Shown here piece after piece: positions 48,001 through 60,000 of a stretch of 64,000 nucleotides of DNA. This DNA is from Engraulis encrasicolus (lineage: Eukaryota; Chordata; Actinopteri; Clupeiformes; Engraulidae), in assembly GCF_034702125.1 (NCBI RefSeq), contig NC_085875.1, forward strand, positions 24,764,116 to 24,828,115, written 5' to 3'. A program made the translations under genes and the position numbers. The notes below the pieces were generated by a model. That model saw only the letters and a program-made list of their open reading frames with translations. It was not told where the DNA came from and ran no database searches. Numbering within the stretch: position 1 is the stretch's first letter; every line of letters begins with the position of its first letter.

Positions 48001-51000
48001 CAGGCTCTGCATGGGGTAAGACGTCAGTAAAAAGGAACATAATTAGTTTGGTGGATTTGAAAAACTTAAGCAAGGGTAGTAGGGCTGCCATGCGGTTGAA
48101 GACGCCTCCTAAATTCAGGTTAAAAATCTGCTAAAAACATACGTATGTTAGCATTAGGTCAAGTCTAACAAGGCACATTCGCATACTGTAGCAAAGGTTT
48201 TTAAAAAATCCTTCATGGCTCGAGCTGGGTCAATAAACTATTTACAAAGTCTCTGATGTGCTTTGGCAGTCAGTCCTTCATCAGAGAGACAAAACAGTGT
48301 GAGTATGGAGTTATGGTGAGTCCTCCAGCCAGACACCTGTTAAGAAGAGATTGGGCAGATCAAATGGCTGGAGGCAAGCGATGCTTGCAGCCCCTTTCCT
48401 CAGCCCCAACCCGCTGTGGGAAGGGAAGCGGATGCGCCGGGTAAGGGGAAGCACAAGACGCTATGCAAGAGACTGATTCAATGTAATTTTCAGGTAAGCT
48501 TTGAACTTTGCCACCTCACCACGCATAATGGCTGGACCCCAGAATAACCCCCCAAAAATTATTGTCTTCAAAAAAACGTAACCCGCCCTCATCAGATTGC
48601 CACATTCACACCACTAGAACCAGTTGATCTGATTGATATCTGCTAGTGTTGATTCTGCTTGAGTGAAATACAAAAGAATCCATTGGTAATGAGATACCAA
48701 AACTCTTTGGAGGCATGTAAAGAAATGTAACTTGTGTCTAGACCTTTTTCAACTAGCAGGGCTTGCATGGAACTCAGGTTCTGATTTAAATTTAAGGTAT
48801 TTGAGCAGGGTGCAAGGTCAGTGTAGTTCTGTGAAGTATAGCACAGCTATGAGCTAAAGCATTTGCACAAATAAGCATGTGTGCACCTTTTTCTATGGGT
48901 TTATCTTCCTTCGGAGCTTCAGGTTTGCATACACAAACGGAAATTTCTTCCTCGGCTGGTTTAGGTTTTCTCTTAGAAACTTTAGGTTCTGTGTTGGGCA
49001 AAATACAATACAATACTGTAACGCAAGATCATTTATTATTATCTCTAAATAATGTAGGCCTACGTCGGCAGGGGTAGCTATTGTCTTATACAATACATGA
49101 TTTTTTTTGTCAGCAACTACATTCATTTAAATTCAAATACCTTTAGAGATTGTTTCAGCTTTCTCCTTTGGAACCTCAGGTTCTGAATTGAGCAAAACAT
49201 CAATAAAAGTAGGCTATTGTTATTTCTAATATATAACAGTAATAGGGGCAATGCAGAAGTGTAGCTGCAGGGAAGCACTCATATACTGTGTTTAATACGA
49301 GCATCTGCTGGATACCTTTCTTAGCTGGTTTGGCCTTTTCCTTTGCAGGTTCAGGCTCTGAGCAATAAATAGAAAACAGATACATATTTAAGATTTGGTA
49401 AAAAAATCAAGTTTTCTTATGAACATATTTGGCACTGATCTTTCTGGTTGGCTAGATATAGTGACTTTATGACTGATTCTCTCCCATTACCCATTTAACT
49501 TGTTAAGAAACGGCGTTATAGATTTGCCGTTACCAGAAAGGCAATGACCAAGTCATAGTTCATTACTAAAGACCCTGTGTTATGTTATAGTATTGTATTA
49601 CTATCATAGTTAACTTTTCAGTGGCTATCACAGTGTGCCACTGAAGGTACGACATGCATTAAGGGGCTACGGTAAGTACCTTTTAGGACTGGCTTGGCAG
49701 CCTTTTTCTCCTTTGGTACCTCAGGTTCTGTGTTAGTGAAACAAAATGAAATCAGTGCCAAAATGGCTTATTTTGCAATAATAGGTAACATGAGCATTGT
49801 GGCCCTTCAGCCCAATATATCAGCTACTCCTTATAGACAGGTCATCAGCTGGGAAAATTAGGCCTTTCGTCCTACCGCACTTTTCTCTGTGGATTACCGA
49901 CCAGAAGCCCTATTGGAAGAAATTGAAACATGGGGCCACGTCAATTTTTGCTCAGAATTCAATATGGCCGCCATTTTCCAAAATGACTTGTTTTCATGCG
50001 TTATTACATTGTACTATAAGGTGATATTCATGAACGATGAACTACTTTCAGCACTATTCTGTCCTATTTCCTTACATACATGTTTACAAAGGTTGACTAA
50101 ACTAAAAGAAATGAAAATAAAGTTGGCCACCTTGCAATATCCAAAGGAAAGTGCTGAAAATAATGATTGAAATGCACATACAGAGCTTATGGCTGCGAAA
50201 ATTAGGCCTATTGTCCTGTCAGGGTTTTCACAGTGGATTACAGACCAGAAGGCCTATTGAAAAAGATGAAAACTTGGGGCCATCTAGGTGCTCCAAAATT
50301 CAAAATGTTCTCTGTTTTTCAGAATGGCAGACTTTCACACATTTTCTCAATACTGTAAGGCCATAATTATCAATAAAGATGACCTATTTTTCAGTTAAAT
50401 TGTCTCCTTACAGATGTAAGTATAAAGGTTGTCTAGAAAAAGACATGAATGAATGAATACAGGGGGTGGACAAAATAACTGAGACACCTTGCTGTCTCGG
50501 TCAAAGATGCAAAGATACTGTGGCTCAGAGACTTTCTACACTTACACAGAATTTCTCCTTTTTGAACTCTGACATGTCACCCATAATGTTGTGTGCATTG
50601 CAAAATTTTGAGCAAAACTGTGCTCATTGAACCTTCACACTTCACTTTACTGGTGCAATGTGCCATTAATGAAGATTGACCAACAGGCTGGTCCACTTGA
50701 GCCATTAAACTTCCAACACTAAAATGATAGGTGTCTCAGTTATTTTGTCCACCCCCTGTATCTTGCCACTTTGAAATATCCAAAGGAATGGTGTCAAATC
50801 ATTGAATCTCACAAACACCGTGGACTGCTGAAAAAAGGTAGCCTCGCGAGCCATCCTACGTACTTCCGCCAAAGGATTGGCTCCACTACTGTAGTCTGGC
50901 CATGCTTCTCTGTGGAGTGCCTGGAGCAGTAGAATTTTGATCGCAACGCCCCCCACAGAAAACAGCCAATAATCGAATACGCCCCCCACGTGGGGGCGAA

Positions 51001-57000: not shown

Positions 57001-60000
57001 TTTATGAAAATATTTAGCACCGCTCTTTCTGGTTGGCTAGATTATGTAATTTGTCGTGACTGATTCTCCCCCAAAAGACTTCATAACCAATTTAAGGTCA
57101 GTACCTTTTAGGACTGGCTTGGCAGCCTTTTTCTCCTTTGGTACCTCAAGTTCTGAGTTAGTAAAACGAAAGTTGGTAAAACTAAATGACATCAGTGCCA
57201 AATTAAGTATAGATGAGGTTTAAAACAATTATGAGAACAATACAAGAAAACGTGTTTGTATCACTGAAAAGTAACACATAGCAGTGACTGCTGATTAGGT
57301 AAGTATTTGTCAATATACTGTATACCTTTCTTAGCTGGTTTGGCCTTCTCCATTACAGGTTCAGGCTCTGGGTGAAACGTGGAAAAATTAAGGGTTTTTC
57401 TACTGTACCATCCAGAAACTATGTAAACGTCTAACGCTTTAATGATTCATAATTAGTGTTATTCAATGGTCTGGACAGTCTAATTTCAAAAGTAAAATAA
57501 AATTTGTGTTGCATTGCAGTTCATCAATTGTACAAATTACCGGTAAGTAACTACAGCTGGGCTATGTGTCTCTTTTGTAATCTAAAAAGAGTAGCAAACA
57601 TATAAACTTCCTAAAACATGTAAAATATTGTAGAAGCAGAGGTATCTGTTTTCCGTTCAAAATGTTTAGCAGAGACATCAGAAAGTACCTTTTTTAGCAG
57701 GTACATCCTTTTTCTTTGGAGGTTGTTCTGCAAAAATATGAAACCCATATAACTGTTAGTGGATCAGCTATGACTGCCACTGCAAATTTGCTCCAAATTG
57801 GGTTTTTTTCCTGGCATTTTTTTTTTTATTTCGCCATAATAGGCAACAGGATGATTGTGGCCCTTTAGACTGATATGCATGCACTCCTCACTCAACTGGT
57901 TTGGCTCTCACACTCAACAGACAATGTACGGTAAGTGGGAAGCAGAAGGCCATAGAATTAGTATTAATAAAGTAGTATTTATGAAAGTATTTATAAAATA
58001 TGATAAGCAAGAAGTGGGGGTAGTTTCACAAGAACCTTGTGGCTCTTGCTGGGTAGTATGTTTTTATTTTTAAAAGGCTATTTTGTGTTTCTCCCTGGAA
58101 ATGGTCTGAAAATATAATAATTAAGCTAAGTATTGACAGTGAAATGGAATTACAGTATATTGCTGTTTATGTGCTGTTTATAACTAAGCTATGACTGTGG
58201 CCTTTTCCTTTGGATGTTCAGGCTCTGATAAATATACAGTATAGGGTAGACATAGCATTTGTTCCTGAGAAATGATTAGTTCTCAAGACCTTATAGAAAA
58301 TATTTTGGTCTTGTGTGCTGAGGTAGGCTATATTGAGCAATCATGCATGCAAGTGTACCTTTTACTGCCAATTTAGCCTTTTCCTTTCGAACCTTAGGCT
58401 CTGCTTGAGACAAAAGATCAAGCAGGTAAAAATAAAATTAAAAATATCAAAAAAGTTATTGTTGAATGATATGAGTAGCTGCAAAAGTAATGTGTTCCAG
58501 TTAAAGCTATCTCTGTTGAGAGGCAGACAAAAATGGTATCTATTTTCTAAAGCAACTACAAAAAACTTCCATGCATGAGCACCTGGCTTGTCTTTCTCCT
58601 TTGGAACATCAGGTTCTGTTTTGGACAGGAGATAAACAGGATGAGAAGCTTCCCTGGTCACCATTAGATACAGTATACGTGTGGAAATATAGTAAGTGCC
58701 TAGTGTTTCTCAGCAGGGCATCTACAAGCCCCCAGAGGGCATCAGAGAGTTATTGGGGGGCATTGAGAAGCAGACAGAATGAAGCATCTCTACATTATAA
58801 TAAACTTAATTCATTTTGACACAAAATAAGATGTAGACTAGCACACCTACGTGTACACAGCAAGTAAGTATACCTATTATAAAGCTGTACTGTTTCATCA
58901 TCTTTATCATGATGGTCATTGTGGGGAGTTGGCAGGCTTACAATGAGGTCAATGGGAGGTTTGTTTGAAAGGCTTCAGTAAACTAGTAAAGCCCATCATA
59001 GGTCATAGTTTATTCTGCTAGTGAACTTTTCAGGAAAGATAGGCCTACCCTTCTTGGCTGGTTTGGCCTTTTCCTTTGACACCTCAGGTTCGGCTTAAAA
59101 TGAGAATGGGAACAATAACATGCCACAAAGCATCAGTGTTCCATTGCAAAACAGAACTTTTCTCTACTAAGTCATCAGATAGCCTACCTCTGGATAAGAT
59201 GAGAAAATGCATGTTGCAATGGGGTTGTAGTGTACTAGGCCTAACTGCTTGCATGTGTCTGTAAATGAAGACTGCTTGTAAAATAAAGACTTAAGGCTTT
59301 TTTGGTATTGGGGCTTAACATTTTCATAATGATTTATGGTGACACAATTGCTGAATGCCGAGTTAAAAATAGTAAACAATGATACTGGGTATTCAAGTAA
59401 AATTGAACAAGGATAGTAAGCATACAGTACTTAGTAAGGAATGAGATGGAAGTGATGCATTACATAGAAATGAGAGCGCAAGTGTGTTTGGAAGCATTTG
59501 TGGCGCACCTGGTTTGACTTTGCTCTTTGGAATCTCAGGTTCAGCTATGAACAAAAATAAGGATAAACAATGTTTTCCATTGTATAAAAAAGATTGGGAA
59601 AACATGTTTGCAACTGTATGAGTGTTAGCGTTCAACTTCAAAACAGCAACAGCAGTTAGGGATGGCCAATAGCGTATGCTGTTCTAGAAGCATTTGCTAG
59701 CAGTGGTACCTTTTTTAGCAGGTTTGGCCTTCTCCTTGGGAGGTTCTGGCTCTGAAGGCAGAGAATAGTGTGTTTCAATATTGCATATAATGCATTATAA
59801 TGCATTAGAAATTCTAGCACAGCTGTGTTCTCAAATCCATGTGGTTCTTAAGTTTCATGTCAGCTCTTCATGAGATGGGAACGCAGCCTCTGTCCGAGAC
59901 AGACCAAACAGACAGTCAGGCATGTTCTAAATAAAAGTCCCAACATTCTTCTTTCTGTATGTGTGTGACGGTGGTGGCTCAGGTGGTAGAGTTTCCTGTT

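Follow-up and report, generated by a model that had tools for sequence, protein, structure and literature searches.

A four-copy tandem micro-exon cassette in the triadin gene of Engraulis encrasicolus

Introduction

Triadin connects calsequestrin with the calcium release channel in muscle. Vertebrate triadin (TRDN/trdn), in its long skeletal isoforms Trisk 95/51, has a transmembrane exon, a Lys/Glu-rich luminal tail and a terminal YFQC exon, and calsequestrin binding occurs via a KEKE-type luminal motif, according to PMC8080761. The gene described below matches this plan, but carries four tandem copies of one exon cassette as well as a repeat exon of 1,042 codons; the carp and halosaur proteins compared showed neither feature.

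Two other genes offer parallels. Titin PEVK is likewise a Pro/Lys/Glu-rich segment of a muscle protein built from short, duplicated exons; PMC6469411 reports duplications and triplications on self dot plots and implicates mobile elements. The gene and the repeats are different, however: titin is an elastic spring, whereas triadin is a luminal anchor, and the inverted-repeat elements that lie within and between the triadin copies are at most candidate causes of the duplication. The account of Piccolo zinc-finger amplification in teleosts (PMC3484663) likewise describes a fish-specific amplification of coding segments inside one gene, although Piccolo amplified zinc-finger domains and triadin disordered charged repeats. 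With the four-copy cassette, triadin becomes a new example of an established process in which arrays of symmetric exons grow, titin PEVK being another; the expansion is real, yet a fairly ordinary kind of gene growth.

Results and Discussion

The window, a 64,000-nucleotide stretch of contig NC_085875.1, holds the 3' portion of a triadin gene from a teleost. Its minus strand carries, from 57876 to 49119, four diverged tandem copies of a unit of ~1.2-1.4 kb with exon slots ordered a-b-c-d-e-f. Fifteen cassette exons are live, totaling 217 codons; slot b survives only as remnants, read by eye, in copies 1 and 3. All coordinates are window positions, and the landmarks belong to one family (D11).

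57826..57876, minus strand: landmark of copy 1, intronic, at the 5' edge of the unit
57689..57727, minus strand: copy 1 exon a, 39 nt, EQPPKKKDVPAKK; flanked by AG/GT and open in phase 1-1
57326..57367, minus strand: copy 1 exon c, 42 nt, EPEPVMEKAKPAKK
57105..57152, minus strand: copy 1 exon d, 48 nt, ELEVPKEKKAAKPVLK
56905..56946, minus strand: copy 1 exon e, 42 nt, EPEPAKEKATPAKK
55310..56869, no strand assigned: inverted-repeat (fold-back) element between copy 1 exons e and f; arms 81% identical (self-BLAST minus match)
55157..55198, minus strand: copy 1 exon f, 42 nt, EPKVPKEKAEPISK
55070..55120, minus strand: landmark of copy 2
54934..54975, minus strand: copy 2 exon a, 42 nt, GLKPPTKTDEHAEK; possibly decaying
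54798..54845, minus strand: copy 2 exon d, 48 nt
54600..54641, minus strand: copy 2 exon e, 42 nt
54432..54471, minus strand: copy 2 exon f, dead through an in-frame stop and an insert of ~330 bp (to ~54107) that took away the donor
54080..54130, minus strand: landmark of copy 3
53935..53976, minus strand: copy 3 exon a, 42 nt, ELKPPKKKDEPARK
53568..53609, minus strand: copy 3 exon c, 42 nt
53038..53085, minus strand: copy 3 exon d, 48 nt
52855..52896, minus strand: copy 3 exon e, 42 nt
52707..52748, minus strand: copy 3 exon f, which has lost its donor consensus and is dead; spliced to the next exon it would, as read from the sequence, yield a junction stop codon
49833..52683, no strand assigned: inverted-repeat element of 2.85 kb separating copies 3 and 4; its arms share 92% identity over 623 columns (self-BLAST)
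49768..49818, minus strand: landmark of copy 4; abuts the d acceptor region, with a-c missing
49680..49727, minus strand: copy 4 exon d, 48 nt
49316..49357, minus strand: copy 4 exon e, 42 nt
49141..49182, minus strand: copy 4 exon f, 42 nt, EPEVPKEKAETISK

Comparison of region 49000-58000 (plus strand) with itself gave 42 off-diagonal matches at E 1e-3 or better, the strongest scoring 412 bits, and none in any of 20 shuffles (these preserved dinucleotides where the path closed and were plain in the other cases). Across 41-64 kb, self-BLAST placed diagonals in all six copy pairs. Both self-BLAST and segment comparison revealed that the copies share introns as well as exons, the introns having diverged by 18-23%. 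These results bear out an earlier note on this DNA, which had proposed a fourfold segmental duplication with common intron sequence and suggested a dot plot as the check. Its list of live exons (a,c,d,e,f in copy 1; a,d,e in copy 2; a,c,d,e in copy 3; d,e,f in copy 4) and its landmark just upstream of each copy agree with ours, and homology runs slightly past the bounds that it gave (49141..57727). The 2.85 kb element has further repeats nested within it. A structured RNA of known family was rejected: Rfam returned no match at gathering score across the window.

Tandem copies are a usual place for assembly error, and the array could in principle represent haplotypes or repeats placed end to end. 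We regard such an artifact as very improbable because the copies are divergent and map to a single locus: their introns differ by the margin given above, deletions and insertions vary from copy to copy, and the locus sits within a 52.9 Mb contig. When the d-e segment was compared with the 1.43 Gb assembly, all seven matches among the scored candidates fell at the triadin locus, with no further copy elsewhere. Among those same candidates, this result also led us to reject a dispersed-repeat origin for the cassette.

Identity of the gene

We assign the gene to triadin because of its terminal IPYFQC motif, the carp- and halosaur-like N-terminal matches upstream, and a nearby Cx43 gene; the identity proposed earlier is supported. 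The rest of the gene within the window comprises the following features.

58359..63792, minus strand: ten more triadin micro-exons, upstream of the cassettes (exons 1-10)
41968..48988, minus strand: eleven more triadin exons, downstream of the cassettes (exons 26-36), one of 102 nt
41756..41841, minus strand: triadin terminal coding exon, EDIPYFQCFFVDEDDTHYPFFPFSPTQM-stop, with an IPYFQC motif also found in carp triadin P0002

Together, the 36 micro-exons and the terminal exon form a single open frame of 567 residues, a Lys/Glu-rich luminal tail made of short in-frame exons; 29 exons of this chain came from a scan, and seven plus the terminal exon were read by eye. The last residues are DIPYFQC here versus KIPYFQC in carp P0002. 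Upstream, residues 42-76 of carp triadin (the transmembrane exon) matched at 92944-92840, in coordinates of the window extended by 60 kb, with 40% identity and E 4e-5 (124 kb searched), and a halosaur triadin protein matched upstream of the window with E 2e-5 (124 kb searched). The transmembrane-exon match would belong to the same transcript as the micro-exons. A Cx43 Pfam match exceeded its cut-off at 8168-9322, near the triadin exons, and a FABP-like first exon near 26328 matched below cut-off only; gja1 and fabp7 are the neighbors of triadin at human 6q22. Composition on its own resembles PEVK, no Pfam family was found at E 0.1 in the 567-residue piece, and all 15 candidates from a C-terminal protein search had E above 1. 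That the gene is some other muscle gene rich in Lys/Glu/Pro (asph/junctin, for example, or a relative of titin PEVK) is nevertheless scarcely credible given the terminal motif, the upstream matches that include the transmembrane region, and the neighboring Cx43.

Symmetric phase 1-1 was read for every listed cassette exon, a symmetry that is partly by construction because the first scan demanded it. A scan of the minus strand of 45-64 kb free of that demand yielded 75 candidates, 34 in phase 1-1, 24 in phase 0-1 and none starting in phase 2, and with its filters recovered 27 of the 36 listed exons as 1-1. Candidates other than 1-1 were mostly overlapping readings of listed exons, among the matches listed; the eight 0-1 candidates shown lie inside listed exons, read from an internal AG. 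Outside 45-64 kb, the looser first scan returned four minus-strand rows, and a tighter scan returned none on the minus strand and one on the plus strand. Because each listed exon is in phase 1-1, any copy number or subset preserves the reading frame, and the cassette clearly illustrates how symmetric micro-exons serve as units whose gain or loss leaves the protein unbroken.

The cassette is one of several expansions in the gene and not the largest: one in-frame exon, 1,042 codons long and made of 9-residue KEP repeats, which begins just outside the window, upstream of the cassette, adds far more length.

Constraint and decay of the copies

Most cassette copies look constrained because the live exons vary far less than the introns (25 of 171 columns variable versus 155 of 429, p 8e-8) and the silent rate per site exceeds the replacement rate. 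The summed pN/pS of 0.33 for cassette exons rests on small counts (16 silent and 19 replacement differences from 15 non-independent pairs). The extra copies could instead be relics for the most part: intronic duplicates without selected function, either skipped or randomly spliced. Two b slots and two f slots have already died, and there are further remnants at 58224 and 48780. Exon a of copy 2 also looks weak and is possibly decaying: its acceptor is the weakest among the 15 cassette exons, and it differs from its copy 3 counterpart by six replacements and no silent change. We nonetheless consider the relic explanation doubtful, since exons d and e are open with AG/GT borders in all four copies and exon columns are so much less variable than intron columns.

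The 15 cassette exons are presumably spliced into mRNA, where their likely effect would be to lengthen the luminal tail, rich in Lys/Glu/Pro/Ala, of the long skeletal-muscle isoform. Such a tail might make more low-affinity calsequestrin contacts, the added repeats themselves binding calsequestrin, or might reach further in the junctional sarcoplasmic reticulum.

Comparison with other fish

The cassette was not seen in predicted carp protein P0002 or in the predicted, partial halosaur protein P0001. The comparison consisted of automatically predicted proteins from these two teleosts, the ones with a readable repeat tail. No description of such an exon array in fish appeared among the matches listed, in a literature of partial coverage.

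Four copies could be the ancestral teleost state, lost or mis-modeled in carp and halosaur, as micro-exons are easily overlooked in automatic predictions, P0001 is marked partial and carp P0003-P0005 end ahead of the repeat tail. We think an old, shared array unlikely, however: carp P0002 is complete to the terminal exon and has a shorter repeat stretch in which the d-e pattern was not seen by eye, and the halosaur repeat is a distinct two-part unit of 32 residues. Tentatively, and at somewhat less than even odds, the luminal tail of fish triadin may be a fast-changing repeat domain that each lineage has lengthened independently by a different route (a four-copy cassette plus an in-exon repeat of 1,042 codons here, a 32-residue two-part unit in halosaur, a shorter tail in carp), its length being tunable and setting the amount of calsequestrin near the release channel. 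A series of fish with very different luminal repeat numbers would allow repeat number to be tested against calcium storage and release.

Origin of the array

Taken as a whole, the best explanation is tandem duplication of a triadin cassette, followed by divergence and giving a longer luminal tail; we assign it a probability of roughly 0.8. The ancestral unit would have comprised about six short exons and their introns (~1.2-1.4 kb, slots a-f), and its tandem duplication would have raised the number to four copies or more, the likeliest route being an initial local duplication and then unequal crossing-over among copies. The copies diverged afterwards: some exons were lost via stops, donor loss, deletion and inverted-repeat insertion, and others are open and conserved. 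For the order of duplication, two segments gave the grouping of copies 1 and 2 apart from 3 and 4 (12|34) 659 and 700 of 1,000 bootstraps. Segment distances hint that the copies may be mosaic in ancestry, but bootstraps do not resolve it.

Upstream of copy 1, a putative degenerate copy 0 would comprise a d-like live exon (58400-58359) and an e-like dead exon at 58224. Intron comparisons support it weakly: four of 36 fell below 0.05, with a best p of ~0.003 (floor 1 in 301). A possible f-like remnant of this putative copy was noted by eye near 57905.

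Four tandem copies of a micro-exon cassette

A sequence repeated four times occupies 57876-49119 on the minus strand, as judged by a repeat search and by self-BLAST. The repeat search returned four copies of the d-region (family D4), four good copies of the e-region with two weaker matches at exon c (D2), and four occurrences of the landmark, the intron sequence at the 5' edge of each copy (D11). Self-BLAST of 41-64 kb placed diagonals in all six copy pairs, for example 54575-54864 against 56880-57171 (88%) and 49147-49480 against 54436-54761 (84%). Between 49000 and 58000, 42 forward matches lay off the diagonal with an E-value of 1e-3 or lower, the top one at 412 bits; after shuffling of that interval there were none in any of 20 shuffles. 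When the d-e segment was compared with the whole genome, all seven matches among the best candidates scored fell within the array; exon c accounted for two.

The earlier note had listed the live exons as a, c, d, e and f in copy 1, a, d and e in copy 2, a, c, d and e in copy 3, and d, e and f in copy 4, and this list was borne out by our scan and by an exon chain assembled by eye. These 15 exons total 651 nt, or 217 residues. Slot b persists as remnants alone, at about 57583 and 53829 (family D15), and no in-frame form was found by eye at either. In copy 2, exon f contains a stop, and the place of its donor is taken by an insert of about 330 bp that, by reading, is bounded on each side by the direct repeat GAACCAATC. 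In copy 3, the donor of exon f no longer fits the consensus and scores 0.3; the 21 non-cassette exons used for comparison have a lowest score of 4.9 and a median of 9.7, and donors of the 15 live exons all score at least 7.8. The acceptor of exon a in copy 2 scores -1.3, under the training minimum of 0.2, and the acceptors of the other 14 live exons score at least 4.7. Self-BLAST also located two inverted-repeat (fold-back) elements:

56869-55310, inverted-repeat element inside copy 1
52683-49833, inverted-repeat element between copies 3 and 4

A further pair of intronic repeat copies inside triadin, 50839-51228 and 60173-60567, is 90% identical (self-BLAST).

Divergence among copies

Introns differ among copies by 17.8-23.1% (K2P 0.20-0.28), and exons, decayed ones included, by 4.8-11.7%. 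Across columns represented in at least three copies, which excludes the two-copy segment b-c, variation was seen in 25 of 171 in exons and, at a distance from splice sites, in 155 of 429 in introns (Fisher p 8e-8); in splice zones 21 of 102 varied. Fifteen non-independent exon pairs, counted without the 39-nt exon a of copy 1, held 16 silent versus 19 replacement differences (0.110 versus 0.036 per site, ratio 0.33). The sole exon a pair held 0 silent and 6 replacement differences.

Micro-exons and reading frame

Using a first scan for Lys/Glu/Pro/Ala-rich exons in phase 1-1, followed by reading by eye, we identified 36 predicted triadin micro-exons and a terminal exon from 63792 to 41756; 29 micro-exons came from the scan, and the other seven plus the terminal exon were found by eye. 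Each of the 36 is flanked by AG/GT, and the joined exons give a single open frame of 567 residues. Lengths run from 33 to 102 nt (42 nt in 13, 48 nt in another 13), although length and phase are partly so by construction because the scan demanded both. A control scan of 45-64 kb on the minus strand, with no phase demand, returned 75 candidates, of which 34 were in phase 1-1, 24 in 0-1, 7 in 1-0, 5 in 0-0, 3 in 1-2 and 2 in 0-2, with no phase-2 starts among them. The 0-1 candidates, among the 8 of 24 listed, lay inside the micro-exons identified above and started at an internal AG. Under these filters 27 of the 36 micro-exons were recovered as 1-1. Outside 45-64 kb the control scan gave three candidates on the minus strand, and the plus strand gave 14. 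The looser first scan had four rows outside 45-64 kb; a tighter phase 1-1 scan had 28 inside it, none elsewhere on the minus strand and one on the plus strand.

Apart from the cassette, self-BLAST detected another tandem duplication, of a single triadin micro-exon with its intron (63124-63321 and 62616-62801, 79% identical). This pair reads ELESLKNITKPVPAKK and ELASLKNITRPVPARK, and a relative, EIDSLKNISKVALAQT, lies at 46987-46940.

A large predicted repeat exon upstream

Directly upstream, with its 3' end 12 bases outside the window, is one predicted exon of 3,126 nt, or 1,042 stop-free codons, on the minus strand (67137-64012 in window numbering continued upstream; 12-3137 of the upstream piece L002). 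It is about 32% Lys, 21% Glu and 19% Pro in KEP-rich repeats with a unit of 27 nt and multiples, has the donor GTAAGA, and shares its phase with the micro-exons. As read from sequence, this predicted exon would add much more to the tail than the cassettes, and no larger expansion was seen in the gene.

Gene identity and neighbours

The window and the neighbouring features within it are:

C19:24764116-24828115, location of the window in the 1.43 Gb assembly
8168-9322, plus strand, open connexin-like reading frame, Cx43 (gja1), Pfam above cut-off
26328-26400, plus strand, FABP-like first exon, Pfam score under cut-off

In the 60 kb upstream of the window, tblastn matched the transmembrane region of carp triadin at 40% identity over 35 residues (E 4e-5), and another exon there matched halosaur triadin at 50% over 36 residues (E 2e-5). 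These E-values refer to 124 kb, and the matches listed, restricted to E below 1 at positions beyond 57 kb, include low-complexity rows in the upstream repeat exon. The terminal exon ends in DIPYFQC, versus KIPYFQC in the predicted carp triadin P0002. By position, we take the FABP-like exon to be probably fabp7; gja1 and fabp7 are neighbours of TRDN in human. Frames L005-L007, upstream of triadin at about 102.8-120 kb in the extended numbering, resemble a Fyn-type kinase gene.

Triadin in other fish

One protein search, which scored only the 7,992 candidates with the most words in common, yielded the partial protein P0001 of the halosaur Aldrovandia affinis; another, with candidates limited by length, yielded four carp proteins (P0002-P0005), and a third found no triadin protein. 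P0001 carries a different repeat from the cassette, EPDVPKEKVKHATLKK-EPEVPKEEVKPAPAKK, present three times without change and a fourth time with a different second half. The tail repeat stretch of carp P0002 is shorter than that of the window, and no d-e pattern was seen by eye in this predicted protein; P0003-P0005 stop short of the tail. A 25-exon profile, biased to the window from which it was built, exceeded 2 bits at 26 places in the array, at 54 in the large upstream exon, at 7 in P0001 and at one in P0002. By composition, basic K/E/P/A stretches hold 469 of the 539 residues of the array, 123 of the 424 of P0001 and 228 of the 928 of P0002. Failure to see the cassette in carp and halosaur does not prove that it is absent, because the comparison proteins are predictions and the profile favours the window. 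Zebrafish triadin is described as single-copy with three splice products (PMC8471218).

Triadin binds the acidic calsequestrin tail through its KEKE motif (PMC8080761), and the long C-terminal part is attributed to skeletal isoforms, the heart isoform being without it (PMC13401598). Extra repeats may provide more contacts or more reach. Judged by title and the start of the abstract, none of the literature matches listed was a paper on triadin exon arrays in fish; the closest parallel is titin PEVK (PMC6469411).

Elsewhere in the window, 34541-35017 is a tandem repeat of a 67-bp unit (7.1 copies, 96% matches), and a long open frame at 32102-32971 on the plus strand looks to us like a Tc1/mariner transposase.
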